Shown here piece by piece: positions 3,152 through 62,181 of a DNA stretch of 64,000 bases (position 1 is the first letter of the stretch; each line of letters starts with the position of its first letter). The DNA is from Auricularia sp. M13 (lineage: Eukaryota > Basidiomycota > Agaricomycetes > Auriculariales > Auriculariaceae): NCBI GenBank assembly GCA_037042915.1, contig CM073197.1:2852001-2916000 (forward strand). Reading direction: 5' to 3'. Under the pieces are notes generated by a model that was not told the origin of the DNA, did no database searches, and saw nothing but the letters and a program-made list of their open reading frames with translations. The position numbers and the translations under genes are program-made.

Positions 3152-5297
3152 TCATTCCTCCCATCCCGAGTCCCGTTTCAAGTCTTCGCTCAATCCCAGT
3201 ACCGTCGGCAGCTGCTCGACATCTGTCATTGTAGGCAGAAGGTTCTCGTGCCCAATAGGCTGCCTTGTAAAGGCGAAGTCGATGAGCACGAGGTCGAAGG
3301 CATCCGCGCCATTAATTTCCGCGGGCTTGTCTGAGAAGCCGGGCCTTGGAACACAAAGTATCTGATTTGTGTGCTAGTCTCCTTGAGAAATGAAAGACGA
3401 ATTCAAGACCGTGACTGCATTCCGGACGTCTTGGGACTAGATAATAGCGCGCGTGAGCGCGCATACCGATAAATCCAAAAGTGCTTACGAGTTTAACCTG
3501 CTCTTCATAGGCCCAACAAGCCACGACATAGGGCAAGACTTCGGACAGCGGTATGCCTTTGACATATTCCATAAGTATGCCGAATACCTTTTGACCATCG
3601 GGAAGCAAGAACTGCGGTGTGACACTTTAGGATACGCCCCAGAAGCTCAGTTGAATCTCGTACCTGATGACAGCCATAAAAATGAGGAATGAGTTGACCC
3701 TGATATTGCGAGAGGCGACGGTACGCTGCCTCCTCGCGTTTGAGTAAGCTATCGGCATCATGAAGCTCATTGAGAATGTGGTTGGCAGCGTCCTCAGATT
3801 CGAGTTCGAAGAGAGTTGGCAGAGGCACAGGAAACAACCGCTCGTCAAAGAGCTTTAAGCACATGGTGCTACTCACAGAGAAGCGCTGTTTCGAGAGCCT
3901 TCCGAAGTACACCTGGGACCATTTTCCCTTTCCCTGCTGCTTGATCTCGGTGATCTCAAATTCGATATTGTCGTGCCGGTCGATCGCGAGTAGCTCTCTA
4001 GCCCGAGAATCACGGGGCCGACGAACGTAACGCGATAGCATTTGGGTGACTTTCTGAGGCAAATCCGGTCCGTGATACCACGTCGGCAGTTCGAAGTGCC
4101 AAGGCGCAAGCAAATTGGGAATGATAAACGTGCGGGTAACGGTTAAGAAAGCCCCCGGGGTAGGACGATTGGAGAATGCAGCGATGCTGGCTTGTTTTTT
4201 CCAGCGCAAGAATGCGTCGTAGTATTTGGAATCTCGCCCAAGCCGATAGACGTCGAAATCCCCGAAACAAGTGGGCGTCCCCTCGACATCGACATCCGCC
4301 GAAGGTTGATTCATAGCACCGAGTAAGAGATATTGGGTATCATCCAGGCTTTCTGAGATATTGGAGATAATAGAAGCGACGCAATATGCGAGAGAGTACG
4401 TCGTCGACGGGAAGACTTCGACGAAACTGGTGACGCGTGTCGTGAGACCATCGAAGGTATTCATTTTGAAGCGAGCCAAAGCAGATGTTGTTCCATCGGA
4501 AATGATTCCATACGCGCATTTCTGCGCGTCGCATCGGAGGACTATGAAGTAGATGAGGTGTTCTAATGCTGTGGAAGGCTCCTGGACCTCGCGGCTATAC
4601 CGCAAATCGGTAAGTTCTTTCCAGTCCACAATACCTGATGGCTAGTTGTTCTTATCAGAATGTAATTGAGGGTGAGATGAGACAGGACAGACGGACGATT
4701 TGGAGAAGGACACATATGCATGTCTTATGAGCCGATGCGTTAAAACCGGACATCCCGCCGAACTGGTACTTCCAGCTCCGATTGTAGTTGCGCATGTCGT
4801 AGTCATCAGGCACATTGCTCAATACGAAGTCCACGACTACGCCAACTGCCGTTCATGTTAGACATATTATTGAACATTACGTAAGATGAGCAAACTCTTT
4901 GCGACGACTTGGACGTCCGTTGATAGGGTGCCATAATGTCCTTCGGGGAAGCAGAACCGCTTGGTCCACGTATGAATAATAGATAGCCATGCAGTCCATG
5001 ATGAGTTGTGCACGACCATAGCACGCACACTGTGGATACAATGTCAGAAACAGGATGTCAGTTACTTATGTATTCTGCGCACCTATCATCAAGATGACCA
5101 CGGAAGACAAGGCGCTTTAGGAGCAACTTGAAGCGTTCGTTCATGGCAGTAAAATTTATGGAGGAGCATATGCCGATACCGTGCCTAATGCGTCGTGCAT
5201 CTTTAACGGCCTCGGCGGCTGTAAAGTCTGGTTCGATGACCGCGGGAGGGGTAGGCCACGACCACAGCGCTTCAAGAACGGACGCCGGCGGTGACAT
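3152..5297 (-). CDS. Kinase-like family copy A (internal stop)
   Basis: Family member on the minus strand. The start at 5297 opens MSPPASVLEALWSWPTP; the next conserved block reads TAWLSIIHTWTKRFCF, then VGVVVDFVLSNV and KTCICVLLQIV. The main exon (about 3620-4629) carries FGDFDVYRL..FLRWKKQ, then the kinase-like N-lobe with LKLFDERLFPVP (Lys of the ATP site), KREEAAYRRL (helix C Glu) and IPHFYGCHQ. Next comes LLPDGQKVFGILMEY, the hinge region. In the last exon the catalytic loop reads SQGD-stop-HTNQIL: a TAG at 3374-3376 (complement) stands where all the other copies have TGG (Trp). Beyond it the frame continues to a DFAFTRQPIG motif and a natural stop at 3152. Either this is a young pseudogene, the stop is edited or read through, or it is a sequencing error. 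Confidence 0.72.
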
Positions 5298-5687
5298 GAC
5301 AGATCACTGAAGCTGGATGCAGACAATGGCACAAGTAGCGGAGCTTCGTGCCAATCGACGACGAGAACTTTAAAGCAAAGCCTAGGTCCGCTTTTTATAC
5401 TCCGCATGTTGACAGTTGATGCGTCTCAACCATTCATCAATAGATACTCAATGGATTCTCTACTCTACTCCCAGTGCCAGGAAGAACAAAGATTGAAAAT
5501 GTGTTCTATGCACCTTTTCCAACGCCAAAAGTGCGGTATGCAGAGCCAAGGAAATGGTATTCTGCTCCAGTCATAACATCCTTCAAGTTCGCGAGACACA
5601 GGAAATTGCGGTACTTGGAACCCTCAAATTCTGTCACAATGGGAGCCAACGACCGCGATGTCAGACACATCAGTCTAGATGCATATC
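5298..5687. other. Intergenic between copies A and B
   Basis: This holds the upstream region of copy A and the downstream region of copy B. No further gene or repeat is recognisable. Confidence 0.5.
5394..5399 (-). promoter_or_regulatory. TATA box of copy A
   Basis: The minus strand reads GTATAAAAAG about 97 bases upstream of the copy A start codon, a normal distance for a fungal TATA element. Confidence 0.45.
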
Positions 5688-7857
5688 TCATTCGTTCCAT
5701 CCCGCATCTCGTCGCAAGTCATCGCTTAGTCTCAACTCGAGCGCGAGCGCCCCCACATCTAGCATCTGAGGAAGGATGTTCGTCGTTCCCGTCGGCTGTG
5801 TTGCGAAAGCAAAGTCGACGAGCACGAGCTCGACAGCATCTGCACAGTATACTTCGTCGCCGTTGGCGTCGGTCTGGCGCATGAGGCACAGAACCTGCGC
5901 AGTGTGCCAATCTCTTTGTGATATGTGAGACGCGTTCAAGACGGCGACAGCGTTTCTGATGGATCGACACTGTACAATCGTGAGTGTTTGCGTGCAGACC
6001 GTTCATGCATGCAGGGCGCGGTGCTTACGAATTTCACTTGCTCGTCGTAGTCCCAATATCGGCCAGCGAAAAGCAGCATATAGGACAGCAATGTCCCTTT
6101 GATGTTCTCCATGAGAATGCCGAATACCTTCTGGCCGTCGGGCATCGTAAACTGCCAGCGCGCAACGTGGGGTCGGTCACTGCGTCCAAAGATAAATCAG
6201 ACTTGAACGACGCACTTGATGGCAGCCATAAAAGTGCGGCAGGAGCTGACCCTGGTGCTCTTCAAGGCAGTGGTACACGGCCTCCTCGCGACGGAGCAAG
6301 CTATCGGGATGGTGGAGCTCTTCGAGAAGCTGGTGTGCCCCATCCTCCTGGTCGAGGAGCCTCGGCGAAGGGACAGGGAAGAAGCGGTCGTCAAACAGTT
6401 TCAGACAGAGCTCGCTTCCTTCAGAGCTCCCGTCGCGCAAAAGCCTGCCTACGTAGACCTGCGACCATCGCCCTTTCCCGTTCTGCTTGACCTCTGTAAT
6501 CTCGAATGCGAGCTCACCGCCAGAGGCGAGCAGCTCATGAGCGTCAGAATCCCGCGGACGGCGAACGCGACGAGATATCTCTTCAATGACTTGCTCGGGC
6601 AGCTCGAGCCTTTCATAATACGATGGGCAGCGCCAAGGGTCGAGAATATCGGGTATCACGGACGTGCGGGCGATACTCAAGCGGGAACCGATCCCAGGCA
6701 GGGCAGCGAATCCGCTGATGCTAGCCGCCTTTTTCCAGACCAAGAAAGCCCTGTAGTAATCCTCATCGCGCGCCAATTGATAGGCGTCAAAGTCGCGGAA
6801 ACAGGTGTGGCCCACGTCCAAAGGAAGCGTCTTGACGATCTTCGGGTCGTTCATCGCGCCGAGCAGGCGACGTGGACTATCCCTGAGGCCAATCGAGACG
6901 TTTGAAAGCACGGCAACCAGGCGATAGGCAAGCAACTGTGATTCGGGACCGAAAATCTCCACAAATGTGTCTTTGGGGAAATAGTGTTGCGTTATCGGTC
7001 TTGGCCTGATGTTAATAAAGGCGGACGTCGCGCCGTCGGAGAGAATCGCATACGAGCAGCATCGCGCGTCAGAGCGAGCGCCCATGAGGTGCAGAAGATG
7101 TTCGACGCGTGTGGTTGGCTTCACGATTAACCGCCCGCCGCGCAGAGAACGCAATTCGTTCCAATCCACCGCATCCAGGGGCTGTTCAGCTCAATGAGAA
7201 AAAAATGCAACACAGTGCAAATAGTACAAACCCACCACTTGAAATAGTGTGCATATGCAGGTCTTGTGGGCCGACAAGTCGAAGCTCGTCGTCATCCCGC
7301 CTCGTTGCAGCTTCCAGGCGCGCTCGGTGTTACGAAGAACGTCGTTACCAGCAACATTGCTCAGGACAAAGTCCACTACTACGCCGACTGCACCGTGACT
7401 GCATATCAATAGACGCGCTCGCCGTCTGAAGGTTGACTTGGACGCACGTTTTTCGACGACCTCGATCTCCGTTGTGAGCCCGATTCCGAAGTCACCGTAA
7501 TCCCCTGTGAGAAAACAGAACCGGGCGGCCCACCACTTGAATATGGAAAGCCATTCTAACCACGAATCGTTCGTCGGAGCCGCGAAACTGGGCTCGCTCC
7601 TGCTTGATTGTGAGACCTAAATGTTTCTGGATGAAAAGTTCAACGTACTTGTTGTTGCCGGACCCTTGAAAGCGAAGCCGATCCAATCTATAATCTAAAT
7701 CCTTGCACAGCTTTGTGCAATGCGTTGAACCACTTGTTTTGGTACCGTGCACCAAGCGCGGCAAAGTCGACAGAGCTTCGGCTGGGGAAAAAGCTGGCTC
7801 GAGAACATCAGGTGGTTTCGGCCACGACGCAAGCTGTTCACGTATAAATGAGGCCAT
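5688..7857 (-). CDS. Kinase-like family copy B
   Basis: Minus-strand family member of the A-D type, apparently intact when spliced. The start at 7857 gives MASFIREQLASWPKPPDVLE, aligning with the N-termini of A and D. The exon around 7450-7560 reads EWLSIFKWWAARFCFLTGDY, the conserved family block. Next come VGVVVDFVLSNVAGND and HKTCICTLFQVV. The main exon (about 6215-7169) begins MDWNELRSLRGG and carries FRDFDAYQL, FLVWKKA, LCLKLFDDRFFPVP, RREEAVYHCL and LPHFYGCHQV. A short exon encodes MPDGQKVFGILMENIKG. The last exon gives the catalytic loop ISQRDWHTAQVL and DFAFATQPTG, ending at 5688. The HRD His is replaced by Gln, the loop Asn by Gln and the DFG Gly by Ala, so enzyme activity is uncertain. 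Confidence 0.75.
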
Positions 7858-8306: not shown

Positions 8307-11148
8307 CTAGACTGGTTCCGGAGTGCCAGGGACCACCTCAGGCCATTCGTCCTCATCGTAATCGTTCCATCGAATGCTTCTCTTCATTTCCCCGTCTAGT
8401 CCCAGCTCAAACCCAAGGCGGAGACGGTCCGGCATTTCGGGGAGAATGTGCCTTTCGCCCAAAGGCTGAAAGGCGAAGGCGAAGTCGATAAGGACCAAGT
8501 CAATCGAATGCGGTGGCTCCGTGCCCCGCTCAATGCACATGATCTGGTTTTGATGCCAGTCTCTCTGAGAAATGCATGACGCATTCAGAAGCTTGACGAT
8601 GTCGCCGATCCGCTTGAACTGGGCGGGTGTGAGCGCTGAGTGAGGCGGCTGAAATCGATACAAGACCCACCAGTCCGACCCGCCGCTCGCGGTCCCAAGT
8701 GTTGCTGGTCTCCAATATCTGTGACAGATGCACACCTTCAATCTTCTCCATGAGGATTCCGAGAACCTTCTGACCGCCGTTAATGAGATTTCCGGGCAAG
8801 ACGAACTGCGAGCATCATCAGCATGAAAGAGCCAAAAGGCGGTGACAGTTACCTCATGGCACCCATAGAAATGAGGAAGGAGCGTTCCCTGGAACTCAGC
8901 AAGGCGATGATAAACGCTCTCCTCGCGCCTCGCCATCGTCTCGGCGTCGTGAAGCTCGTTGCTCATGTGGGTGTGCGGATCTTCTCTTTCAAAAATGTCG
9001 ATCGAGGGAACGTGGAAGAGCCGCTCGTCGAATAGTTTCAAGCAGAGACTCCGCGACGCCGTGCGTGTTTTGGACTTGAGCTTGCCGATGAAGACCTGAG
9101 ACCACCTATCTTCGCCTTCCTGCAAGACCGTCTCGATTTCGAACTTCAGGGGCACCGTCGATTCCAAGAGGTCAACACTCGTGTCGTCGCGGGCCCGATA
9201 TTCGCCTCTAACCGATTTCAAGACGTCTGCGGGGATAGCGACCTTCGAGTACGGGCAGCGCAAAGGGTTCAAGCGACGGGGAATCACTGCGCGGTTGACT
9301 GTCAAGGTCGTACCACTCGACGGCAGACGCTCAAGGGCGCGTTTGGCGGCTTTCTCCTTCCAGCGCAGGAAGTGCTCGAAGTAGGCACTATCCCAGCCGA
9401 GTCGGAAGGCGTCGAAATCCGCGAAGCATTCTGGACTGCCACCCAGAGATCTGATAGACGGCGACGGGCGGTTCAGTGCGCCAAGGTGTTGGGGCTTTGA
9501 ATCCAGAAAGCTCCACGAGTACTTGGAGAGTACGGTGGCAAGACAGCAGGGGACGGGAAACGTTGCGGCGGCGAACGACTGGCAGGTTAACGTGATCATG
9601 TATGTGTGATCGTTGAATTGCTCTGGCTGAACGCGCATGAGACACGTTACCCGACCATCCGAAACGATCGCAAAGTAACACTGTTGGCGTTGACACCGCA
9701 AGACCAAGAAATTCAGAAAGTGTTCCAGGTCTGTCTGTGGCTTCTTGAGTTTATGCAAGGCTTTGAACATCCCGTCCAACTCCGTCCAGTTCAACGTATC
9801 GCGGGGCTGAGCAAGTGTGAAAGGATTCGTGGGTCAGTCACTTCTGCACGCCACATAGCCTACTTACTGTCCGCTCACGCACCAGCTGAAAAAGAATGCA
9901 CATGCAATGCTTCTGGGTGGTACTGTCGAACAGTGTATTGACGCTTTCGTAATACTTCCATGCTCTGTTGGTGTCGCGCTCGTGTTTATCGAACGGCACG
10001 TCGCTCAATACGAATTCCACCACAACGCCGACTATGCGGGCATCAGCGCTCAGCAACCAATATCAACAAGGCCAAGCCCTGCTCACCGTTCTCGACGGCT
10101 TCGACGTCCGTAGACAGCCTGATGTTGAAGTTTCCGTAATCCCCTGGGAGAAAACAAAAGTCTTCGGACCACCTGTGGATGATCGACAGCCAGTCGTCCC
10201 AGCGAATAAGCGCGCCGTTGTCGCACGCTCTGCATATTCTGCGCGACGCGTCAGTGTCACATAGAGTCATCATGCACACAACACCAAAGGTGCGTACCCA
10301 TCACCAGCAGACAGCCAAAACTCGCCCCGAGCTGTTCTGAGGAAAACGTCAGACGAAGAACGCACTCGAGCATCAGCCATACTCAGTCCTAGTTTTCGTG
10401 GAACCCGCAAATGGCTGGAACCTCAGACGGCCGAGCAACAGACGCAGTTCTGCCTCGAGATGCGACCACGTCGACGGATGGGTGCCGTATACCGCGATGC
10501 CACTGCCAAAGACGGGCGTCCGAGCCGAATACGCTGTGGCCGGCGCGAAGTCGGACACTGCGACCTCCGGCGCGTCCGGCCTAGGGTGCTGTCGAAAACT
10601 ATTTGTTAATAACAATGTTATTAACAAAGTGTTATTAACACGTTAATAACATGGGACCCCGGGAGGGCTTTGTTAAAAACAAATTTGAACATATCAATTG
10701 CTGAGGCCCTGGCACTTTGCAGTGACATAAATCTAATTTTGTATGAGCCTGAGTGCCTCAACATGAACTCAAGCTCGTGTTTTGTAATTTCAGAAGGTAT
10801 GGAGACCTAGGCCAACGCTCTCAGCTGTGAGTGTATGATGACTAAGCACTGCTCTGAGGCTTGGCTAAGGCTCCAAAACGATCAACATGAGGTGTGGACA
10901 CCACAACAGCTTGTGGCATCTCCTTCGTGCAGTAATAGTTGAAAAGAATATTTACAAAGGGTCATAATTGGGTCATTACTGACTCTCAGAGCTTCCTTTG
11001 TTATATTATGTAAGTTTGTTATTAACAGTGTTTTTAACACTGTGTTAATAACAGATTTTGTTAAAAACATGTTAAAAACTCCCGGGGGGTTTTTAACAGC
11101 ACCCTAGTCCGGCCACGAGTATAGAAGGTCGCGGATGGCGTGCACCAT
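8307..11148 (-). pseudogene. Kinase-like family copy C, split by a hAT-type MITE
   Basis: Near-identical inverted partner of copy D. The start at 11148 gives MVHAIRDLLYSWPD; a 525-bp transposon then interrupts exon 1 after about 14 codons, and the coding sequence resumes with EVAVSDFAPATAY. The remaining exons match D: WDDWLSIIHRWSEDFCFLPG, VGVVVEFVLSDVPFDKHERD, HCMCILFQLV, a main exon with ECFADFDAFRLGWD, FLRWKEKA, LCLKLFDERLFHVP, RREESVYHRL and LPHFYGCHEV, then GGQKVLGILMEKIEG, ISQRDWHQNQIM and DFAFAFQPLG. In this copy the introns between the last three exons happen to be stop-free in one frame. The insertion should abolish a normal product unless transcription starts downstream or the insert is spliced out. 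Confidence 0.75.
10582..11106. mobile_element. hAT-type MITE (525 bp)
   Basis: Terminal inverted repeats TAGGGTGCTGT and ACAGCACCCTA bound the element, and an exact 8-bp target duplication GTCCGGCC flanks it at 10574-10581 and 11107-11114. The empty site is visible in copy D near 21195-21205, where one copy of the corresponding sequence is present, so the borders are certain. The interior is AT-rich compared with its surroundings, holds nested GTTAATAAC palindromes near both ends and has no transposase. The 8-bp duplication and TAGGG ends fit the hAT superfamily. Confidence 0.88.
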
Positions 11149-11662: not shown

Positions 11663-12590
11663 CTACCGCAAGCTGCGAGCCACAAAGCTCAAGAACGCCG
11701 CGCGGTCGTCGTCCTCCCCGCCCCCGTTCGCGCTGTGCGTCGCACGCCAGACGCGGTACAGCCCGCGCACCGTCTCGCCCAGCGCGCCGTCCACATCCTC
11801 GTTCGCGTTCGAGTTGGACGAGACAGACGATGTGGACGAGCTGAAGGTGTGCGACGTCGCGAGCGGGTGGCTCCCGCGCCTCAGGAGCGCCGCGGAGGGC
11901 GCCGGGGTGGGGATGCTGTTCGCGCGGCTCGCGGGCGGGGAGATAGGGCTCGGCATCACACCGCGATTGCCATGACTGCTCGCCGTCGACGAAAGCGGCG
12001 ACGGCGACGCGGGGTTGAGGTTGATCGCGAGCGCGGACTCGCCGCCACCGCCACTGCCGGCACCGTTGCCGTCGACGAGCAACCGCGAGGGCCCGGCGAC
12101 GGGGCTACCGGTGATGAGCGCGCGCGTGGCGCGGCCCTTGCCCTTGTCGGCGATGGCGATGAACGACTGGTGGATGATCGACGGGCTCGTGGGCAGCGGC
12201 GCGGAGACCGTGGGGATCGACGGCGGCGGCGTGCCGAGCGTCAGCGTCAGGCCCTGCGGCGTGCCCGCGTGGTGCTGCTGCAGCGGGTGCGTCGGCGACG
12301 GCAGCAGGTCGAGCGGCGCCGTGCCCGCCGGCGCGGGCGGGAGCGTCAGGTTCGTGTCGAGCGGCGAGGGCGAGGGGACCGGCGACGGGCGCCCGGAGGT
12401 GTTGGTGTTGTGCAAAGCGTTGGCGAGCGCGTTGGCGTCGAGTGTCCCGGGCTTCGTGACGATGGCCGGTGCGGCGGGCGGCAGGATGGGCGAGTAGCCC
12501 GTGCTGCGCTCGGCGTTGTAGTGCGCCCAGTATGTGTCCTCGCTGCGCTGCCGCCGCCGCCGCCGGAGAGCGAGGCGGCCGCGAGCGAGC
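11663..12590 (-). pseudogene. 3' fragment of the Ser/Pro-rich gene
   Basis: The minus strand encodes the C-terminal half of the protein at 19040-20606 almost unchanged, from the region around AYWAxYxAERSTGYSPILPP to the shared end AFLSFVARSLR. The 5' half, including the start codon and first intron, is missing. The break lies near 12590, where similarity to the full gene ends. The reading frame of the remaining part is still open, which points to a recent duplication. It has no promoter of its own that I can see. Confidence 0.8.
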
Positions 12591-13472
12591 CAACAAATAT
12601 GGATGCGAAAAGTATGCTCCGGACCGCCAGACTTCTGAGGCTAACTGGATCATGAACATCAGGCAGTTTGGGCCATGACGCATGCTCTTCTGTGTGACAT
12701 GGACGGGGCCATTCACATGAGAAATCGGGTCGTGGTCGAAGGGCGCCAGAAGAAAAACTCCGAGCATGGCAGGAGACGACAATGACGAATTCTACCTTTC
12801 AGACACCGTGTCATATTTTGTTAATATAGCGCCTGGAAGAGCGAGCGGTCTGCGCTGTTGAACGTTGAAGGTCAACTTCAAGCCTGAAAGCGCTCAGCGG
12901 AGCTGTCAGCCTGCCGCCGCGCGAAACTCCGCTCGTCCCTTCTCTTCCTGATTCTCACGCATCCATCCTTCTTCCTTGCGTCGGTCCACGAGTGGTGTTC
13001 GAAGCTTACAAGAGTAAGCTCCGCGAAATGCTCGACACACTGGCGCTGCTCTCTCCGGAGCTCTCCGGGCCTTCAGATATAACTGACCGCCGGTCTACGG
13101 CAAGCACTGTAGAATGGCAGGACTGCATTTGCTCTAGTGTCACTGTCAATGGAGCGGGGTCGCGTCTTTTAACCGCTAGGCCATTTTGGGATTCGGAAAG
13201 CTCGCGGAGGCGCACATCTAACCTCATTCCCGAAGATGAAAGTCTGTCCGGGCATGACACCGATGCATGCGTAGAACATAGACGATCGAACTACCGCGCC
13301 ATGACCACACGTCTTACCACTGCCTTTTGGCGCTAAAGAGATCGTCTCGCCATAGTACGACCTACAACGCTTGTACAGAAGAAACTACCGCCTATAAATG
13401 GTCGCCTGAGGTCCTGGCAAAGACCTAACCAAGTCTCAGCTCGGCGTGCGGCTTCCATCCCCGATTCAAATC
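12591..13472. other. Intergenic upstream of decarboxylase
   Basis: No supported gene. Short open frames around 12992-13336 on both strands resemble nothing I know. The decarboxylase promoter lies at the right end. Confidence 0.45.
13393..13398 (+). promoter_or_regulatory. TATA box of the decarboxylase gene
   Basis: CCTATAAATG lies 75-80 bases before the ATG at 13473, a typical position for a fungal TATA element. Confidence 0.5.
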
Positions 13473-16400
13473 ATGTCCTACCTCGGTCCCGGACGTCTTC
13501 GTCCAGATGTTACTGCCTCTCAGCCAGTACTTCAAGAGAATCAGTTTCATGCCGTACCTGGACACCACCATTCAGGCTATACCACTGCACCGAGTCGTCA
13601 TGACATGCGCGCTGCCGCCGGTCGGCCGAATGATATCCACGAAGCTATCTCCGCCTGGTTTCTGGGCCCGCAGGCAGAGAACTACGACATCCTCCTCGAC
13701 CTCTTCAAAGCCGCTGCGGATGGACAGCGCGCCGCGCGCCTGGCCTATCACCCAGAGGATGGCGTTGGTATCTTCATTTTTTCCGCTTCAACTGGGCTCA
13801 GGTGTCCCCAATCAGGAATTCATCACTGATCGCCTCCAGGCGAGCTCCACATTCAAACTCAATGTCGCAAAGATGAAGCAGACATTCATGGAGGTGATCG
13901 CAATGCTCAACGCCTACTCGGTCCCATTCTTCTCGCCACGCTATGCAGGGCATATGTGCTTCGAAACCTCCATGCCAGCTATCGCGGGGATGCTCGCCAC
14001 GATGCTGTTCAACCCCAACAATGTCGCGTTCGAGGCAAGTCCATGGACGACACAGATTGAACTGCTGGTCGGGAGAGACATGTGCGAGATGCTGGGGTTA
14101 AAAGTTGAACCTGGTCACTCCAACGTCCCAGTCGGATGGGGCCATATAGCATGTGATGGTACTGTTGCCAACCTGGAGTCTATCTGGTCAGTTTCCCCGA
14201 AGCATACTCGATCGCGCGTAGCTGACTACTGAACGTAACATCTAGGGCAGGTTCGCTACTCGAAACATCGCGTTCTAAGTAGTCCGCTCACTCCATGTAC
14301 GCAGCGCGCAACCTCAAGTTCTACCCGCTTTCCCTCCGGGACGCAATGGAAGATGGAGAGCCGCTTCATTTCGTATCCAGCGCCTTCCGCGTCCCGCCCT
14401 GCGCGTTCGACCCCGCTCGCCCAGCGACCGAGTGGCCGCTCTTCAGCGAGCTCGAGGTCTGGGACCTTCTAAACCTGCGCGTCGAGGACATCCTCAACAT
14501 CCCCGAGCTCCTCCAAGCGCAGTTCGGGATCTCGCCGACGTGGTTGGACGACGTGCTGAAGCCGTTCCTCATCCAGACCTGCGGCAAGGACAAGCTGGAG
14601 AGGAAGTGGGGGATCGAAACACCACAGTATTTGATTTCAAACGTGAGTCGCGCATGCCCAACATCCTTGATACCACTATATTTCTGGTGCTCAACCTTCC
14701 CGCACGTGAAGACGAAGCATTACTCGTGGCCTAAAGGCGCAGGTACGGGATACCACGATCACTACCATGTATAGCGCATACGCTGACGTTGCGCACAGCT
14801 ATCGCCGGAATTGGCTCAGAGAACATGGTCGATGTCCAAGTGGACAATAAAGGCCACGTCGACATCCCAAAGTTGCGTGTTGCGCTCTCCGAGCGTCTCG
14901 CGCGCAAGCAGGCCGTCTATGCTGTCGTCGCCATCATCGGCTCGACTGAGGAAGGCGCCGTCGACCCGCTCGATGAGATTGTTAAGCTACGCACCGAGTT
15001 CCAGGCGGAGGGCATGTCCTTTGTTCTGCACGCGGACGCGGCGTGGGGAGGATACTTCGCCTCAATGATACGCGAACCCAGGGTGCACGGAGGTATCCGC
15101 ATCCCGAAGGACAAGAATCGCGAGTTCGTGCCTGAGTTGACACTCTCCGAGTGAGAATCCCAGTGTTCTGGCGCGGGCACCAGGCTGACGTTGCTAAAGG
15201 TACACCATCAACCAATTCCACGCCCTAAAGCATGCCGACTCGATTACCATTGATCCTCATAAGGTATGCATGATCTATTTGTGTGATTCTCTCTTGTGAC
15301 TGACACCATTGTAGGCTGGGTGCGCGTCGGATAACGCTCCACAGAAACAGTGCGCTCACTTACAGTTATCTGGCATAGCTACATCCCATACCCCGGTACG
15401 TCAGCTGAGGATGCATGAGCCACATGTACTGAGTGATATACTCAGCGGGCGGGCTATGCTACCGTGACGGCCGGATGCGCTACTTGCTAACCTGGTCCGC
15501 CCCGTACCTCAAGCAAGGCTCCGGAGGAGAGAGCATTGGGATTTACGGCGTGGAGGGTAGGTATGTACTTGAGGATGTCTGCTCCGTACTGCGAAGGATC
15601 CTTACAGACCTGCCTTAGCAAACCCGGCGCGCCTGCAGTTGCGTGCTACATGCACCACACGGTGATCCCTCTCGACAAATACGGTCATGGCGGTCTCCTA
15701 GGCGAAGCGGCTTTCACAGCTGGACGGGTATTGTCTTCATCTCATATTTTTCTCCCAGGAGAATTATTGACGTAGCCCTCTCTAGTTTGCGGCGCACTGG
15801 GCAGCCATGACCACCGATGATCAGCCGTACCTTGTCGTCCCATTCAACGCGTTGCAGAGCGAAGCTCAGGGCGAGCAGGCTGTCAAGAAAGAGAAGGCGT
15901 TCATCCGCGCCTACATCCTGGGCAAAGCGAACGAGGAAATCTTCGACAACCAGGACGCCATGAAGGAGCTTCGAATGATTGGTTCGGACCTCAACATCAA
16001 CAGCTTTTCCTGCAACTTCCGCGTGAACGGAATAATCAACGACGATGTGGAAGAGGTGCGCTAGGTGGCACTCTGATCGGCCGGTTCACGCTAATAACCA
16101 ACGCTCACAGGCCAACCACCTGAACGACCTCATCTTCGAGGAGCTGTCCGTAACGGACCCGTTGGATCCAGTGGCCAACACCGAGATGTTTTTGAGTTGC
16201 ACAACTTTTGCTCTCGCCGATTATGGCGAGTGTGCGAAGAACTTTAAGCGGCGTCTCGGGCTAGAGGACCAGTCGTCTCAGGGACTGCGCGTGCTGCGCA
16301 ATGTTGTCATGTCTCCCTTTCAGACGGCCGGAGACTTTGTTCAGAAGATCGCAGACATCTTCGAGAGGAGTCTAACAAAGCATACCAAGGTTCGCCGTAC

Positions 16401-17379
16401 TTCTATAGAATTTTTTTTGAGGGCTCAAGATGAGTTTTCGCAGACGCTTGTGTGGCGCAACACGATCAGTCCCCAGAAACACGTCTTCACGGTACAAGGC
16501 ACCGACCAGCTGTACCTGTGCTATCAGCCCCAGTTCCACCTTGCGAACGCGCGCTTCCAGCTTGTGCTCACCGCGACAGCGACGGACTGGGCGGTTTACA
16601 TTGGGCGCAAGCTCCCGGAGGAGGTGTATACGTTGACGACTGAGGATGATACGACTTTGGACGACATCATCCACAAGGGCGCATTCTCTGGGATAATCCA
16701 GTCGCTGTGAGTGGTCTGTCGGCTTTCTGCAGCGATGTTGGCACTCAGGCTATCTTCAATCTGCTGTCTCTCAAGTAACCCGGCGGCAGCGGCAGCGCCT
16801 CAGGCTCTCAAACTGCGCGTCCAAGTCTCCAACGTGGCAGTCGTCAAGAAGCGGCCGCTGAACGCGAAGTGGCGCGATGCCGCGTACCCGCGGGATAGCA
16901 CGCCCTTCTATCTCTACGGCACGCCGGCCGGCGCGCACGTCGACCACATGCTCCTCTGCGCGCCGAACTCGCAGCTCTCCGCGGAGAACGTCACGCTCGA
17001 GCTCGACCGCGCGCTCCCCGCCGCGCAGCTCGCCGCCGGCGTCCTCGCGTTCGTCGACGTCCCCGAGGCAGCGATGCAGCCGCTCACCGGCGGCTTCTTC
17101 GCGCCGCGCGCGCGCTTCCGCGTCACGGTCTACGAGGACCCCCGCGCCGCCGAGACGCACGGGCCGGGGCTGGCCACGATCAACGCGGGACAGGCGCCGC
17201 TGGCGACGGGCATGCTGGCGCTTGGGGATGCCGTGTATGTCGACACCGAGAGGATCAACGAGGACGTGGGCCTGCCGACCGCGCCCCGTCGTGTTCCCGC
17301 GCGCAGCGGCCAGGGCTCGGTGCACAAGATGAGTAAACATCTCGAGGGCATCAGGATGAAGGACGTGACCGAGCAGTAG
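13473..17379 (+). CDS. PLP-dependent group II decarboxylase, tyrosine-decarboxylase-like
   Basis: A large multi-exon gene (roughly ten or more exons). It opens MSYLGPGRLRPDVTASQP at 13473; exon 1 ends at GAGGATGGC before a donor at 13764. The enzyme core reads VPFFSPRYAGHMCFETSMPA, then VGWGHIACDGTVANLESIW, HADAAWGGYF (the Asp that contacts the pyridoxal ring) and SITIDPHKAGYIPYPAGG, where the Lys forms the internal aldimine. DPHK-x-GYIPY is typical of tyrosine decarboxylases and relatives, which release CO2 from aromatic L-amino acids to give amines such as tyramine. After the core come a NFRVNG segment, VANTEMFLS, and a long C-terminal extension (about 400 aa) with beta-rich sequence up to the stop at 17377-17379. 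The last intron is probably 16708-16803. Substrate is inferred from motif similarity only; glutamate or other amino acids are possible. Confidence 0.85.
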
Positions 17380-18972: not shown

Positions 18973-19039
18973 GGTCGCGGTTGCAGGACGAGGAGCGGAG
19001 TTCAGTTCTTGCCTCCTTGCCGCGACCAGCCCGCCCGCG

Positions 19040-26646: not shown

Positions 26647-26690
26647 GGTAATGGCTGCACCCCCCCGTCCAACTCACGACACCTCCTGCC

Positions 26691-29651: not shown

Positions 29652-29820
29652 GGCCGGGCTCGGCGCGGTTGGCGACGGTCAGGCGGGTGTTGGAACGCCG
29701 ATGCTACCCTTCGCAGGCTGACCGCACGGTCATTGTGAGGTAGATAGGGCAATGCGCAAGCAGCGCGTTGTCCATTAGACACTGCGGGCGGCGGTCGCGC
29801 GGACGACTGCGGTGGGCTGG

Positions 29821-31716: not shown

Positions 31717-31769
31717 TTGACGCTTCTGCGTCTTCGGGGCCCGTTAGGAAGCATCAAGACAACGATTTC

Positions 31770-49703: not shown

Positions 49704-51887
49704 ATGCAAGTCGTCGTGAAGGAGTTTGAGGACTTGCTGAAGGCCTCGGCACCCCTGCCTCCCCCCCAGAGCGTATCGGCCATCGATTTTCTTGCGTTGG
49801 ACAACAGTGTAAAGAACGACGCCCGCATCGAGGACTATTGTCCCCACCATATACGAGCCTTCTGGGACACGCACGTGTATTATGAAGAACTACTGAAGCA
49901 TCTGCGATTTCTGAAGCTACAACTGCCTATGTTCGTGTTGCGTTCATGACATTTATCGAGGTTTGACGCAGCGACAGAGAGTCTCCGGTCCTCGGCTGGC
50001 AAGCCCTTCTTGAAGTTTGGGCCAGCCAATGTTGCTTTCTTGAATCTGACTATCCAAACTGGAATGTCCGCATGTCGCTACCGGCTGAACACCTGGATAA
50101 CGGTGCGCCTGTCGCCGGACTGCGCCAAATATTTTCTTATTCATTTTTCTCAATAGTTGGACTGGTCACCCGCTGCATTCTGGCTCGACGAGACCTCGAC
50201 AAAAAATCTGAATGGATACCACCGGAAGCGTACTGGAGAATGGATACCATCACCAAGGAGGAGAAATTCTGCTTGTGCACCATCATTCGCGTAGTAAGTC
50301 TGCATCCCCATAGTCAATGTCCATCCACTAACGCTCCCAGCCCGACGGCTGTGTTCCTTGGGAGCTGTCCAATATGCGTATAGGACTCCTGTCAATACCT
50401 GCCTCCACGATGCCTGAAGGGTCCCCCATCAGAGCGCTCATCTCGACCATGCTCTCCACGTGTGCAGCTACGCATTGCAGATACGGGTTCATTGCGGACG
50501 CAGCGTACACAATGTTCGTGACATGGGAACCACGCAAGCCCCAGGACAACAGCCCTACAAAGATCTGGTACGAGCTGATTCCCAGAGCTACTCATTCAAC
50601 CGTATTCTGCATTGCGGCCGTCATGCTCCGGTATTCTTTCAGCGTCAATACACATGTGTATTCGCGACAGGTTGCAGGCGCCGCGAATCAATCCCAAAAC
50701 GGGCGCAGAGTATTCGCCGTAAATGCGCACCCCCAGCATTTCCGCGACTTCGGGCTCTACGAGATGGAACATGACCGTAAGCAGTACAAGAACTTTTTGC
50801 ATTGGAAGGCCAAGAAGTCTGCGCTGGCGCTCGAATCGCCTCTCTTGCCCGGCGCGGAGCTCTCTCTTCAACGCGACGTGATACCCAGGAAGCTCGAGCC
50901 GTGGCGCTGCCCATTTCCGTGGGTACCTGTGCCGGATGACTGTGTCGCCTCTATATTCGATCGTAGGCCACGGTCCTCTCAAGTGGATGGTCTATTGCGC
51001 TGTGACAGCCCCCTTGTCTTCCGAATCAACAAGGCCGTCCGCGTCAGCAGCGAGGCGTTCTCCCAGGTCTTTACGGGAACGCTAGGTTGCGCTCCTAATG
51101 GCATGGTCTCGGATACGGAGTTGTGCTTGAAACTCTTTGACGAGCGACTATTCCCCGTTCCGAGCATCAATGACTACCATAACGCAGCAACCCCCCGTAT
51201 TGCCCACCTCGCCGCACTCAATTTCCCCGACGAGATGATGCGCCGAGAGGAAGCCGTGTACACTTATTTCTCTGCCGAGGAGCCTTCGAGGGGGCCCCAT
51301 CTACAAGGACTCTCGATTCCTCACTGTTATGGCTTTCATGAGGTGCGTTTGAATTAACCACTAGTTGCACCGCGACTCATCAGGTTCCAGTTTACGGTAG
51401 AAGATGGGGCAGAGAGGCGCACCATGCTGGGATTTCTGATGGAATATGTAAAGGGTGTTCCTTTCGAGGAGGTCCTTGAGGAGATGTTCATGGAAGACTC
51501 GAAATGGAAGTACGAAGAGAAGTTCGCGTTGGTGCGTACTTACTACTGGCATGTTATGCGCAGGCGCTTTCAGTAACATCCCGCGACTAGTTAAAGCGTT
51601 TACGGAATCTCGTCAGAATCCTGAACCACGCTCATTTCACCCACGGCGACTGGCACCCAGCTCAAATTATATGCACGAGAGATCAATCGGACGGCAAGCC
51701 GCTAGATCAGCAATACGACTTTGTGCTTCTGGACTTTGCGTTCACACGGCAGTTGGATGACAGGCGCATCACGGTCCCTAGGCTCCGTGACCTTGGCGAA
51801 ACATGGGACTTTCTCGCGCAGTGGGGCATGTCTGAAGAAATGACTCGGGCGCTTGGATGGATGGAGCGCGACGAGTGCGACGTTTGA
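49704..51887 (+). CDS. Kinase-like family copy H
   Basis: Plus-strand G/H/I-type member, apparently intact. The start at 49704 gives MQVVVKEFEDLLKASAPLPP. Exon 2 reads DRESPVLGWQALLEVWASQC, CFLESDYPNWNVRMS; exon 3 has RCILARRDLDKKSEWIPPEA and LCTIIRV. The main exon carries ALISTMLSTCAATHCRYGFI, FRDFGLYEMEHDRKQYKNFL, IPRKLEPWRCPFPWVPVPDD, LCLKLFDERLFPVP, RREEAVYTYFSAEE and IPHCYGFHEV. The next exon gives ERRTMLGFLMEYVKGVPF. The last exon has HFTHGDWHPAQII, the most canonical catalytic loop in the window (HGD as in aminoglycoside/choline kinase-like enzymes), then DFAFTRQLDD, ending WMERDECDV at 51887. Confidence 0.78.
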
Positions 51888-52226: not shown

Positions 52227-54408
52227 ATGCAAATCAGTGCAAAGGAATTCGAAAACTTGCTGGAGGTCTTGGCGCCCCTACCTCCTCCCGAGAGCCCGAA
52301 GACCATCGATTTCCTTGCGCTGGACGTCAGTATGAGGAACGACACCCGCATCTTGAAGGAGTATTATCCGAACTGCGCACGGGCCTTCTGGGATACGGAC
52401 ATGCTGTGGCAAGAATTATTGAAGTATCTTCGATTCCTGAAGCTTCAACTTCCAACGTTCGTGTCGTATCCACGACGTCTCCGAGATCTAACCCAGCGAC
52501 AGAAATTCTCCAACCCTCGGCTGGGAAACCCTTCTTCAAATTTGGGCTAGTCAATGTTGCTTTCTTGAACATGACTATCCAAACTGCAATGCTCGCATGA
52601 CTTTACAGTCCGAACACTTGGACAACGGTACGCCCGCGCAACTATACCAAATGTCTGCTTATTCAACTTCATTCCATAGTTGGCCTAGTCACGCGTTGTA
52701 TCCTGCACGATGAAGCGGTTGTCGTTGACTACGAATGGATCCCGCGCAAAACGTACTGGGAAAAACAGACTATGACAAAAATGCAGAAATTGTGCATGTG
52801 CACCATCATTCGCGTGGTAAGTCTGCCTTTGTCAATGTTCGACCACTTTGTAACGCGTGCAGCCCGACGGCTGCATTCCTTGGGAGCGATCCGATTTCCG
52901 TATCGAAGGGACGTCAATACTCGCTTCCTCGATGCCTGAAGGGTCACCCATCAGAGCGCTCATTTCGACGGTGCTATCTGCGTGTGCAAATACACATTGC
53001 AGATACGGACTAATAGCGGATGCAGCGTACACAATGTTCGTGAGGTGGGAACCACGACCACCCCACGAGCCCAGTCCTACTAGGATATGGTACGAGCTCA
53101 TTCCAAGAGCTGCACATTCAACCGTATTCTGCATTGCGGCCCTCATGCTCGAGCATTCCTTCAGCGTCAATCGACGTGAATATTCGCGGCAGGTTGCAAG
53201 CGCCGTGAATCAACCCCAGAATCAGAAATGGCGCAGAGTATTCGCCGTAAATGCGCGCCCCCAGCATTTCCGCGATTTTGGGCTCTACGAGATGGAACAT
53301 GACCGTAAGCAGTACATCAACTTTTTGCATTGGAAGGCCAAGAAGTCTGCCCAGGCGCTCGAATCGCCTCTCTTGCCCGGCACGGAGCTGTCTCTTCAGC
53401 GTGACGTGATTCCCAGGAAGTTCGAGCCCTGGCGCTGTCCTTTTCCGTGGGTACCTGTACCTGACGACTGTACCGCCTCCATATTCAGTCGCAGGCAACG
53501 GTCCTTTCAAGTGGACAGACTGTTGCGCTCTGATATGCCCCTTGTCTTCCGTATCAACAAGGCTGTCTGCGTCAGGGCGGAGGCGTTCTCGCAAATCTTC
53601 GCGGGGAAGCTAGCTTGCGCTTCCAACAGTCTGGTTTCGGATACACAGTTGTGTCTGAAGCTATTCGACGAGCGACTGTTCTTCGTTCCGAGCCGCTATG
53701 ACTTCGACTCCGTGGCAGGCCCTCTCGTTGCCCGCCTTGCCGCACTCAACTTCGCTGACGAGATGATGCGCCGGGAGGAGGCTGTTTATTCAGCATTCTC
53801 TGCCGATGAGCCTGAGAGGGGACCCCATCTGCAAGGTCTCTCGATTCCTCACTGTTATGGCTTTCACGAGGTGCGTTTGGTTGACAACACTCCGTACACC
53901 GCGACTCAATGTGTCCCAGTTCACTGTGCATGATGGAAAACAGAGCCGCACAATGCTGGGATTCATCATGGAATATATCGAGGGTGTTCCTTTCCAGCAA
54001 GTCCTCGAGGAAATGTTCACGGAAGGCTCAAAGTGGAAGCATGAGGAAAAGATCGCCTTGGTGCGTACTGCAATTGAAGCGCCTGCCGATGAATTAAGAT
54101 CTCGCCACTAGTTGAAGCGTTTACGGAACCTCATTAGGATTCTTAATCACGCTCATTTCACCCAGTGCGGCTGGCACACAGGTCAGATTATATGCACGAG
54201 AGAAAAGTCGGACAGCAAGCCGCTGGATCAGCAATTCGACTTCGTGCTCGTAGACTTTGCGTTCACACAGCAGTTGAGTGACAGGCGCATCATGGTCCCT
54301 AGGCTCCGTGACCTTGGCGAAGTCTGGAATTTGCTGGTACAGTCCGGCATGCCTAATGAAATGACTGAGGAACTTGGATGGATGGAGCGCGACGAGTGCG
54401 ATGTTTGA
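52227..54408 (+). CDS. Kinase-like family copy I (catalytic Asp lost)
   Basis: Plus-strand G/H/I-type member. The start at 52227 gives MQISAKEFENLLEVLAPLPP. Exon 2 reads DRNSPTLGWETLLQIWASQC, CFLEHDYPNCNARMT. The main exon has LIADAAYTMFVRWEP, FRDFGLYEMEHDRKQYINFL, IPRKFEPWRCPFPWVPVPDD, VFRINKAVCVRAEAFSQIFA, LCLKLFDERLFFVP, RREEAVYSAFSADE and IPHCYGFHEV. The next exon gives SRTMLGFIMEYIEGVPF. The last exon reads HFTQCGWHTGQII, where Gly replaces the Asp that all other copies keep, followed by DFAFTQQLSD and WMERDECDV at 54408. Splice sites look normal, so it may encode a true pseudokinase. The following gene on the opposite strand is a broken lectin-like copy. Confidence 0.78.
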
Positions 54409-56231: not shown

Positions 56232-58322
56232 ATGAATATTCCTCTTGCTGCCGTCTTAAATAAGCACCCACGCTCTCTTCTGCCTCACGTGGCTATACAG
56301 GACTTCAACCCGCCTGCGTCGACGCTTCGTATCAGTCTCGCCATGGTTAAGCTTGCACTGACAGACGTATCCAACCTCACGCTCGGAATCCTTCGATCCA
56401 TCAGATTGGTGCCACGCGAACAAGATGTCGTTATAGCTGGAAGTTCTGCAAGCCACCAGGATACCCGGGCTTGGATTCCTTGGCTCTCTCTACTGCACTC
56501 TTGGGCTCGCCGGTTTTGCTTCTTGCCCGGTGACTCTGGCGACTGGGATGTGGTTATGTTTACGAACATTCAACATTGGAAACATGGTCCGTATTATTAT
56601 TCTCGCTCATTATATTCCATGTTAACGTTGCACTCCAGTGGGGATTTTGCTCCGATTCACCTTGGGCAACACCTTGGACCCGGCTACACTTTCTGGTAGA
56701 GCGTGGTTTCGTGATGATGTTGATTCAGCTCTGCCCAATAAACGGTTCAACTTGAAGATCCATAAACTCTGCATGTGTCTCGCCCTTCGCGTGGTATGTT
56801 CTCCGGCAATCTTACCATCGCTCTATGTATTCACAGCTTTTCAGCCTTCTGAAAGCATAGATTGGAATGAAACGATACGACTTTCTAGCGTTGCGGTGCC
56901 TGAGCTTTCCAATGCGACGCAGACCCAGCGCCTCATCCGATCCCTTGTCGAGGCATGCGATGAGATTGAATGCTCATACGCAGTGATTATGGACAACAAA
57001 AACACCCTCGTCATTCAACTGTCCGATCCCAAGGAACAAGTGTCACCGCGGTCTGCGAAATGCCAGCTATTCACTGCTCTGGAGCACTCTGCAGCATTTT
57101 GCATTGCTCAGATTATTCTCAAGCATTCTCCTAGTCTCAACCGCCGCGGAAAAATTCTCCATCGCGGAGTTTCTAATCTTGGTGCTGTTTTTCCGGTTGA
57201 ACATGCCACTCGATTTCGTGACTTCGACTACTACGAGCTTTCCCGCAATCGCCGATACGTGAAGCACTTTCTGGAGTGGAGGTCCCGCCAATCCAGCACC
57301 GTCCAGGCCATCCGCATTGACGACATGCTCTCTATTACGGGTCGTTATGCTCTCCCGCGCCAGGTGGCTCGCTGGCGCTCCCATTTTCCTCGCTATACAC
57401 TGGACAAGCAGGACCGCGTGCGCTTGAATGCTTGGACTAAATATCGCCGGCCTCGCAGCGGGACGACCGATCAAATGCTCCGCGATGCGCACGGGCTCGA
57501 GTTCCGCGTCACCAACGTCATCCAGGATGGCGACGGCCACTACTCCCGCGTTGTACGTGGATATCTGCAAATACCCGGTGTCTCCGAAGCATCCGCCCAA
57601 ATCCTCGTCTTGAAGCTCTTCGACGAGCGGTTTTTCCCAGTGGGTCGACTGTATGACTTCCTGAATCGCGAGGCCGAATTTTGGCTGAACTTTGCGGACC
57701 AACTCGTGCGACGCGAAGCCAGCGTGTACAAGCGCCTATGCAAGCTCCAGGGTTCGTTGATACCGTGGTATTATGGCTGCCATGAGGTGAGAGGAAGTGG
57801 CTCGTTCTAGCAATATCAAGCAGCTGATGATCTCCGGGTTCAAGTTTGAGCTTCCCGACGGTTGTAAGGTTCTCGGCGTCTTGATGGAAGAAATTCGCGG
57901 AACGAGCATAGACAGCGTGATGTCCAAGCAGACGTCTTACGAGGAGCGCGGGATGCTCGTATGTTCCTTGCATTTCTTTTGCAGCTGCCGCTTGCTTAGA
58001 TTCTGACGCGTACACATAGCTCTCATGCATGCGGGGCTTCATCCGCTGCCTGAATCATAGCGACATCACACAAACCGACTGGCATTTAAATCAAATCATA
58101 TGCGAGCCATACACCATCCGGGTCGGGTCGGCCAGCGACGGTGTGCATCATACTCATAGACCTGTTTTCGTCGATTTTGCATTCGCCACACAGTCATCCG
58201 GAATTACAGCCTGGATGGACGAGAAAAATGATGTTGATGAACTGGGTCTCCTCCTGGGTGTTGGTACCAACTCTACGGAAGAGAGCAAGTGGTGGTTCGA
58301 ACGCGACGTATGCGAGTACTGA
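56232..58322 (+). CDS. Kinase-like family copy J
   Basis: Plus-strand E/F/J/K-type member, apparently intact. The start at 56232 gives MNIPLAAVLNKHPRSLLPHV; exon 1 carries WIPWLSLLHSWARRFCFLPG. Exon 2 gives LLRFTLGNTLDPATLSGRAW and HKLCMCLALRVV. The main exon has LIRSLVEACDEIECSYAVIM, FRDFDYYELSRNRRYVKHFL, LSITGRYALPRQVARWRSHF, RVTNVIQDGDGHYSRVVRGY, LVLKLFDERFFPVG, RREASVYKRLCKLQ and IPWYYGCHEV. The next exons give ELPDGCKVLGVLMEEIRG, then HSDITQTDWHLNQIIC, where Thr precedes the loop Asp, and DFAFATQSSG, ending RDVCEY at 58322. It stands head-to-head, at about 136 bp, with the broken lectin-like copy 1. Confidence 0.8.
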
Positions 58323-60003: not shown

Positions 60004-60094
60004 TTTCAAAAGCGTCGGAGTTCAGAGTTGGAACATACGCAACCGACATCAACTCGACTGCAATCGCTCCTCGACCTTACCCCAGAGTGCCAGG

Positions 60095-62181
60095 ATGGTG
60101 ATCCCTCTCGCTGCGGTCCTTGACCAGCACCCGCGCTCTCGTCTGCCTAGTTTGGCTGTAGCCTCCTTCGCTGTACCGCAGCCAGAGCTCAAACCTCAAG
60201 TCATGCTCGCTATGACAGAGCTTGAACTCACAAACAAATTTATCACCACGCTTGGCAAGGTCTACCGATCCTTGAAGCTGGTGCCGCATGAACACGATGT
60301 TGTCCTTGCTGGACAACGCGAATGCCTTCAGAATGCACAAGCCTGGACCCTCTGGCTCTCCGTACTGCACTCGTGGGCTCGTCGTTTTTGCTTTTTACCA
60401 GGTGACTACGATGCTTGGGATGCAGTTATGTCTACAAGTATCAAACACTGGGAAAATGGTTCGTCGTTCTGTCAACTCTGTCTTTCGGGCTGACGTTCTC
60501 CCTGCAAGTGGGCCTCATGCTACAATTTACCCTGAGCAGCTCAAGCGACGTGGCTATACTTAATAAGCGGCCGTGGTTCGGCGATTACGATCCAAGTCGG
60601 CCCAATGCTCAGTTCAAGTTGACGGATCATAAGCTATGTATGTGCATCGCTCTTCGCGTGGTATGTTCCCAAACTCCCTTACCATTGCGCTACGTATTCA
60701 CGGTCTATTAGCTAGAACAATCCGTAGATTGGGAGGAAGTCAAACGGCTTTCGCGTTTTGGGGCGTCTGTAGTTTCAGATGCGACGCAGACTCAACGTCT
60801 TATTCAATCTCTGGTTGCGGAATGCGACGAGGCAAAATGCGCATATGCAGTGGTTATGGACAACAGAAACACCCTTGTCATTCAACTCTCGGAGCCCAAG
60901 AAATCCCCGTCCTCGAGCCAACGACGGTCTGCGACATGTCAATTGTTTCCCGCTCAGGAGCACTCTGCAACATTTTGCATCGCGATGATCATCTTCAAAT
61001 ACTCTCGTAGTCTATATTACCGTGGCCAGCTTCTCGGGCGTGGGGCTGCGAACTGCGAGCTGGCTTGGCCGATTGATAACCCGACTCGATTTCGCGACTT
61101 CGACTATTACGACCTTTCTCAGAATCGCCCATACTTGAAAGAGTTTCTCGCGTGGAGGGCCCGTCAACCTCAAATTGTTCCGGCCATCCGCATCGGTGAC
61201 CTGATCTCTGTTACGGGTCGCTATGCTCTCCCGCGTCAGATAGCCCGCTGGCGCAGTCAATTTCCTCGCTATCCACTGGACAAGCAGGAACGCATGCGCT
61301 TGAATGCTTGGACCAAACAACGCCGGCCTCGCGATGCCACGACAGATCTATTGCTCCGTGACGCCCATGCGGTGGAGTTTCGCGTTACTGACAATATCCA
61401 GGATGGCAATGATCACTACTCCCGCGTCGTACGTGGGTATCTGCAAGTGCCGAGTAGATCCAAAGCTTCGGCCCAACGGCTTATCTTGAAGCTCTTCGAC
61501 GAGCGATTCTTCCCTGTGGATCTGCTCTATGACTATCTCGCAAACGAAGCCCAGTTTTGGATCAACTTCGCCGATCAACTTGTGAGACGCGAAGCCAGTG
61601 TCTACAAGCGCCTGAGCAAACTCCAGGGCTCCTTGATACCATGGTACTATGGCTGCCACGAGGTGCAGCGATAAAGTTGCCCATCTGTCGAGGCAATATG
61701 AACCGGCTGATTGTCCCCTCTCAGTTCGAACTTCCCGACGGTTGTAAGGTTCTGGGTATCTTAATGGAAGAAATCAGCGGGAAGACCCCGGACGAGATAA
61801 TCACGGAGAAGATGCCGCCAGAGGAGCACAAGATGCTGGTACGTTCTCAGCATTTCCTTTGCGACACCTCGCTCGGCCGCACTTACGCACACGCAGCTCA
61901 CATGCATACGAGGCTTCATCCGCGTTCTGAATCACAGCGACATCACGCAGACAGATTGGGGCTTAGATCACATTATATGCGAGCCGTACACCAGCCCGGC
62001 GACGGAGGCCATACGCCACCGACCGGTGTTCCTCGATTTCGCGTTCGCAACACAGTCTTCTGGAATAAGGGCTGCGATGGACCCACACACGGATGTCGGT
62101 GAGGTCGGCTTACTCCTTGGCGTTGGCATGGAATCTGGGGATGAGAGGAAGTGGTGGTACGCCCGCGATGAATGCGAGTAG
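60095..62181 (+). CDS. Kinase-like family copy K
   Basis: Plus-strand E/F/J/K-type member, apparently intact. The start at 60095 gives MVIPLAAVLDQHPRSRLPSL; exon 1 carries WTLWLSVLHSWARRFCFLPG. Exon 2 gives LMLQFTLSSSSDVAILNKRP, WFGDYDPSRPN and HKLCMCIALRVV. The main exon has VDWEEVKRLSRFGASV, CAYAVVMDNRNTLVIQ, FRDFDYYDLSQNRPYLKEFL, LISVTGRYALPRQIARWRSQ, FRVTDNIQDGNDHYSRVVRG, LILKLFDERFFPV, RREASVYKRLSKLQ and IPWYYGCHEV. The next exon gives ELPDGCKVLGILMEEISG. The last exon reads HSDITQTDWGLDHIIC, in which the otherwise conserved His and Gln after the Asp are changed, then DFAFATQSSG, ending ARDECE at 62181. It is closest to copy J. Confidence 0.8.

Follow-up and report, generated by a model that had tools for sequence, protein, structure and literature searches.

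Two described systems are among those closest to the locus analysed here. FunK1 is a fungal kinase family for which local expansions have been published (in the available part of PMC3203195), and SPOK3 carries, in this order, an N-terminal domain, a middle domain and a C-terminal kinase described as closer to eukaryotic-like kinases (in the available part of PMC6660238). We analysed a stretch of 64,000 nucleotides of the fungus Auricularia sp. M13 (contig 5, hereafter C5, CM073197.1, positions 2852001-2916000; hereafter the window) within a genome of 52.1 megabases (Mb) in 14 contigs. An earlier reading of the letters alone (the sequence-only reading) had proposed that this window holds an eleven-copy cluster of an atypical kinase-like gene family. 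We find that the family is old and constrained, sits at one locus in this genome and keeps different working subsets on two copies of that locus; sequence comparison gives good support to homology of its C-terminal domain to protein kinases, strongest for the C-terminal half of that domain. A literature search, judged by titles and the beginnings of abstracts, did not find a description of the family.

The copies were delimited with a purpose-written spliced aligner, run with the K protein against the region of each copy and then against the whole window on both strands; B and H used as seeds improved the N-termini for clades A-D and G-I. The alignment returned eleven copies, A to K, from 3152 (the end of the stop codon of A) to 62181 (the end of that of K), exactly the span and number given before. 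The K protein scores from 467 (I) to 3229 (K itself) across all eleven regions; with the reversed K protein, no score above 60 is obtained anywhere on either strand of the window. The copies lie on both strands, as had been read, with five on the minus strand (A, B, C, E and F) and six on the plus strand (D, G, H, I, J and K):

3152 to 5297, minus strand: copy A, 6 exons (5297-5083, 5029-4896, 4845-4697, 4641-3664, 3611-3489, 3436-3152)
5688 to 7857, minus strand: copy B, 6 exons, 627 amino acids, open frame
8307 to 10579, minus strand: copy C, close to D, with the 5' end of exon 1 severed by an insertion
21160 to 23458, plus strand: copy D, 6 exons, 659 amino acids in the model
23936 to 26026, minus strand: copy E, with a frameshift in the large exon
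36309 to 38429, minus strand: copy F, main part, with exons 1-4 and the start of the last exon
30005 to 30163, minus strand: copy F, detached 3' end of the last exon
46626 to 48802, plus strand: copy G, 6 exons, 639 amino acids, open frame
49704 to 51887, plus strand: copy H, 6 exons, 644 amino acids, open frame
52227 to 54408, plus strand: copy I, 6 exons, 647 amino acids, open frame
56232 to 58322, plus strand: copy J, 5 exons, 622 amino acids, open frame
60095 to 62181, plus strand: copy K, 5 exons, 621 amino acids, open frame

Four introns, of phases 1, 0, 0 and 0, recur after about residues 121, 172, 489 and 527 of K in the ten window copies tabulated (F stands outside the table). One extra intron near residue 70 is present in A, B, D, G, H and I, and C has two extra; the row for E includes one false intron, and the border between exons 1 and 2 of D is uncertain (weak acceptor, 92-nucleotide intron). 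The ten window copies modelled to their end measure 613-659 amino acids (F excluded; E with its frameshift bridged), and the models of seven of the eleven (B, D, G, H, I, J and K) have an open frame. The motifs listed by the sequence-only reading hold generally, with exceptions in A (KREEAAY), in J and K (FL.WR) and in G-I (FRDFG), and, in the catalytic loop, in I (CGWH) and K (DWGLDHI). Copy B displays the most canonical-looking set (GKGRWSQVYVG, LCLKLFD, RREEAVY, SQRDWHTAQV, DFAF).

The kinase-like nature of the C-terminus is borne out by sequence profiles. A profile of eight family kinase domains matches 28 PDB sequences at E≤0.01, all of them kinases and the best at 3.7e-4; they come from five different kinases (MK2, MK3, ULK1, ULK2 and STK33), and the matches span the hinge, the catalytic loop and DFG. 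With a full-length profile of six copies, MAPKAPK2 is reached at 1.3e-3, and kinases make up 48 of the 51 PDB sequences at E≤10. The family also aligns with a kinase-like protein encoded elsewhere in the genome, on contig 11 (the C11 protein), at a pairwise hhalign E-value of 2e-15 over 202 columns, N-lobe included. The large exon of the C11 protein was first found unguided, the protein itself matches PK_Tyr_Ser-Thr at 0.0014, below the cut-off, and the profile that includes it reaches ULK2 at 6.1e-8, a figure leaning on the added sequence. Below the cut-off, the Pfam matches of the spliced members (PIP5K, Kdo, ABC1) are all kinase-like. Note that the alignments differ in content: A1 comprises B, D, G, H, J and K, and A6, A7 and A8 comprise B, a2, D, e2, J, K, G and H, with the C11 protein added in A6. 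In the latter three, A and E are represented by a2 and e2, their open counterparts in a second cluster described below, and C, F, I, b2, d2, f2, i2 and k2 are left out.

Across the eight family members and the C11 protein, the beta-3 Lys, the alpha-C Arg-Glu, the hinge Glu, the catalytic Asp and Asp-Phe-Ala are invariant (nine of nine sequences). In the wider set of 17 models from both clusters, which leaves out F and the interrupted j2, the beta-3 Lys, the alpha-C Glu and the DFA Asp are always kept, and the catalytic Asp is present in 16; the exception is I, with Gly, whose counterpart has Asp, and in A this residue lies just before the stop. The metal-binding Asn is kept in none of the 17, being Gln in 15 and His in K and k2. 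The His of HRD is replaced by Gln in most copies (H keeps His), DFG reads DFA, the Gly loop can be recognised in A and B (GKGxWSQVYxG) and is eroded in G-I, and only 38-55 residues follow DFAF in the models.

For the proteins scanned, no named Pfam family reaches its cut-off: neither the exon frames, the six spliced members, k2 and f2 nor the eight middle regions matched any profile over the cut-off, the best score being that of PIP5K (21.1 bits versus a cut-off of 27). The sequence-only reading had been unable to match the family to FunK1, and membership of FunK1 (PF17667) is rejected: none of the six scanned members matches its profile at E up to 10, the four FunK1 matches in the genome (three over the cut-off) all fall outside both clusters, and hhalign of the family against the best FunK1-like place of the genome covers 13 columns at a probability of 0.2. 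Among PADLOC profiles, weak matches were obtained to MkoA (7.8e-5), PD-T4-6 (2.2e-4) and REase_II (0.01), each in one or two of six members, and NCBIfam gave nothing below 0.18. The analysis adds a kinase-like family that the Pfam release used misses, with a consistently altered catalytic loop and under purifying selection.

Genome searches with the large exons of D and K located the family at the window and at C5:3.42-3.51 Mb only, along with weak matches on C11 and C2, mainly to the kinase part. These searches score only the best candidates, so the two family places are a lower bound; both lie on C5. In the second-cluster sequence analysed (C5 3415001-3525000) we found eight counterparts, those of A, B, D, E, F, I, J and K (a2, b2 and so on), and none of C, G or H. 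Seven of the eight have open frames in the models, and in j2 an insertion with inverted ends breaks the gene. Relative to the window, J, K and the stretch at 38.9-46.3 kilobases (kb) are inverted. The six copy pairs comparable as proteins are 94-100% identical, and in a tree of the 17 models six of the seven second-cluster copies are sister to their window copy; the seventh, f2, groups beside E, its partner F being left out, and the pairings F/f2 and J/j2 rest on DNA identity of 94.9-98.6%. A second cluster with inversions, absences and a different set of broken copies is new. The disjoint losses on the two sides were not used as evidence, as they have a chance of ~0.29 (10 groups, 3 lost per side).

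About half a megabase seems to be present twice on C5, head to tail. Beyond the clusters, position 2980001 compared with 3554755 gives 100% identity and 3160001 compared with 3787190 gives 98%, equal kinase scores pair 2696132 with 3200055, and the offset between the two copies changes along the contig, from 504 to 627 kb. Equal kinase scores also point to other doubled places in the assembly (C9/C12, C1, C11 and C8). Because of this doubled stretch and of the other apparently doubled places, the second cluster is, on sequence grounds, most likely the other haplotype, probably that of the partner nucleus, with two haplotypes laid end to end in the assembly. Whether it could instead be a true segmental duplication within one nucleus is a separate question: both clusters do share a contig and, at the points sampled, run head to tail, but we hold a duplication unlikely given the 98% and 100% identity at the two sampled points, the doubling of other places and the one-to-one pairing in the tree of six of the seven modelled second-cluster copies. 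The assembly contains two alternative versions of the cluster.

All eleven copies of the sequence-only reading are present in the window, but four of them (A, C, E and F) are broken. In A, a premature TGA interrupts codon 554, in the catalytic loop, and the second-cluster counterpart is open. Exon 1 of C has received about 525 bp, judged against the counterpart of D; its inverted terminal repeats make this insertion DNA-transposon-like. In E the frame shifts at some point within about 24760-24825, a difference from its open and otherwise matching counterpart that could stem from an assembly error. A Ty3/gypsy long terminal repeat (LTR) element divides F, which also has another insertion, of about 150 bp, near 36724-36871. 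The two larger inserted elements are:

10582 to 11106, no strand assigned: insertion in exon 1 of copy C, ~525 bp, inverted terminal repeats
30182 to 36336, plus strand: Ty3/gypsy LTR retrotransposon inside copy F, with gag, protease, reverse transcriptase, RNase H, integrase and chromodomain

The Ty3/gypsy insertion is probably recent because its LTRs (30182-30481 and 36037-36336) are near-identical; the right edge of the element may lie at ~36358. Outside the window, at a distance of 3.6-4.2 kb, the minus strand carries a twelfth piece of the family (C5:2919611-2920198; score 179 versus 44 for the reversed control), which is of the E/F type, decayed and interrupted by stops.

The ratio of nonsynonymous (dN) to synonymous (dS) divergence, estimated by the Nei-Gojobori method, bears on how these copies have been maintained. 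Paralogue dS is about 0.2 for C/D, 0.57 for H/I, about 0.95 for G/H and J/K and about 1.8 for A/B, the larger values being near saturation and rough only. In these same five pairs dN/dS is 0.23-0.32, and in every one of them the kinase part has the lowest value (0.15-0.28): purifying selection acts among old paralogues and is strongest in the kinase part. The family has expanded within this genome, as the sequence-only reading had it, but the expansion is mostly old by dS, and members are now being lost. One could also regard the locus as a transposon-rich stretch in which copies have been gained and lost for the most part neutrally and few are still useful, and the LTR element, the two insertions with inverted ends, the frameshift, the premature stop and the decayed twelfth piece would all suit such a history. 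This is unlikely in our estimation, as it is at odds with the paralogue dN/dS of 0.23-0.32 and with the retention of catalytic residues. Sequence exchange has left its own trace: between G and H and between G and I, a middle-region tract reaches up to 97% nucleotide identity versus 50-68% in the N-terminal region, and the contrast is smaller for H/I (up to 93% versus 56-84%). Such near-identical tracts beside divergent N-terminal regions point to gene conversion among G, H and I. Between alleles, dN/dS of the pairs is 0.12-0.53 overall, on few changes.

From the direct results (gene structures, motifs, kinase homology, purifying selection among paralogues and differences between the clusters) we propose a reading that we hold with about even confidence: a locus-bound family of atypical kinase-like proteins that would bind a partner through their N-terminal and middle regions and ATP through the kinase domain, with a role in conflict somewhat favoured. 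The proteins measure about 620-660 amino acids and would probably be intracellular. A variable N-terminal region is followed by a middle region of no recognised fold, and the C-terminus is formed by a protein-kinase-like domain that has a degenerate Gly loop, the beta-3 Lys, the alpha-C Glu, a hinge, the catalytic Asp, the DFA Asp and a very short tail. The N-terminal and middle regions most likely bind the partner, and the kinase-like domain would bind ATP and either phosphorylate a target or act as a nucleotide-controlled switch. The family would have grown by old tandem duplications and been reshaped by gene conversion, inversion and transposon insertion, and each of the region's two copies keeps a working subset of its own. 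Because of this birth-and-death pattern, a role in conflict or self/non-self recognition would fit somewhat better than a fixed role in housekeeping or signalling.

It is possible, if doubtful, that the copies are lineage-specific signalling kinases or pseudokinases, acting in development or stress and expanded as FunK1 is in other fungi. Purifying selection among paralogues and the lack of clear fast change between alleles would be expected of them, and expansions are published for that other fungal kinase family (in the available part of PMC3203195); on the other hand, four of eleven window copies broken and clusters that differ in their copy sets are unusual for fixed roles. The locus is probably not the mating-type locus, as the STE3 matches are on C7 and the one KN-homeobox match is on C3 (other homeodomain families were not searched). 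Note that the STE3 receptor and KN-homeobox matches, together with the Ty3/gypsy element, are consistent with the fungal origin that had been assumed for the family. A more specific and quite improbable version of the conflict role is a single-protein system in which the N-terminal and middle regions would damage or tag non-self nuclei or cells and be restrained by the altered kinase domain (QxDWHxxQ, DFA), and each nucleus's own set of working and broken copies would lead to partners being matched or screened.

Several results weigh against the proposed kinase-like, conflict-related family. The PDB profile matches reach only the C-terminal half of the kinase domain; support for the N-lobe comes from the motifs and from the C11 protein, which was spliced with copy D as a guide and is somewhat biased in that respect, and the hhalign figure above is a pairwise E-value, not one from a database search. 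Single sequences give no Pfam match over the cut-off, and one large exon alone searched against PDB yields a single chance match (E 1.5). Copy I, with Gly for the catalytic Asp, is outside the nine-sequence alignment on which invariance was scored, and, since no model retains the metal-binding Asn, pseudokinases may account for some or all of the copies. The middle region (FxDF, FLxWK), as a profile or singly, has no match in PDB or Pfam, and the N-terminal region obtained only chance-level matches in full-length searches. The structural difference runs along the whole doubled stretch, beyond the cluster too, dN/dS of the allele pairs gives no clear sign of diversifying selection, and in the pairs D/d2 and A/a2 the kinase part is not the most constrained (few changes). 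Should the conflict role be true, the cluster would be a tangible candidate for a fungal locus of non-self recognition or drive; should it be false, the models would still help to annotate genes that are currently nameless.

Other genes are interspersed with the copies. A ribosomal protein S24e gene lies inside the cluster (38776-39537, minus strand; Pfam Ribosomal_S24e, 2.6e-35), and a similar, truncated-looking frame is found at 29001-29678 (minus strand), with related stretches in the second cluster. A Ser/Pro-rich gene is present twice, in opposite orientation, near C and D (11663-12640, minus strand; 18504-20606, plus strand); its second copy has no Pfam match, and it was perhaps duplicated together with C/D. 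Between C and D, 13429-16710 encodes a pyridoxal-dependent decarboxylase with a tyrosine-decarboxylase-like C-terminus. The frames of a gene without a name at 26652-28564 contain the segment EIIISDYQSTVLL and an acidic Ser-rich tail, with no Pfam match, and 957 bp of it match the second cluster at 99.7%. Long frames of many short imperfect repeats (QEAQCP, VKRRNAH and others) at 41746-43553 are perhaps a tandem repeat instead of a gene.

Among known systems, the SPOK genes of Podospora resemble the family, as compared by description (available part of PMC6660238), in their three-part order, their C-terminal atypical kinase and their differences in copy number. The copies could in principle work alike, with a middle domain that does harm and a kinase domain that protects in one protein, and the cluster as a set of selfish spore-killing genes; size and order of parts are similar to SPOK3 by that same description, and the two clusters differ in copy number and integrity. 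We consider this very unlikely, and reject membership of SPOK itself: the SPOK cysteine cluster before the kinase (C-x3-C-x13-C-x5-H-x7-H) is in none of the 17 models, whether searched strictly or relaxed. As for the PD-(D/E)XK nuclease of SPOK, the middle regions have no profile match to a nuclease and no supported nuclease domain, and a loose PD-x(8-30)-(D/E)xK pattern is found in 3 of 17 models (E, e2 and f2), its place in the protein not being evaluated. FunK1 is alike as a fungal kinase family with local expansions (available part of PMC3203195) and differs in that its profile matches none of the six scanned members and neither cluster. Conventional kinases (ULK1/2, MAPKAPK2) differ from the family in the mostly replaced His of HRD, the replaced Asn, the DFA and the short tail, and match it weakly, but in both the hinge, catalytic loop and DFG follow the same order and stand in the same register. 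Also close are the kinase-like proteins dispersed elsewhere in this genome (C11:48623, C11:2400360, C11:2525007, C2 and others), a family found at about ten places besides the two clusters (C11, C2, C1, C9 and C5). Unlike the cluster copies, they are spread over contigs, and the C11 protein keeps the catalytic-loop Asn (QDLALRNIL); compared in the kinase domain only, they are homologous to the family (hhalign, as above) and have in common with it SQVYxGxL, the beta-3 Lys, RE..Y, QG..P..YG, the hinge Glu, the catalytic Asp and DFA.

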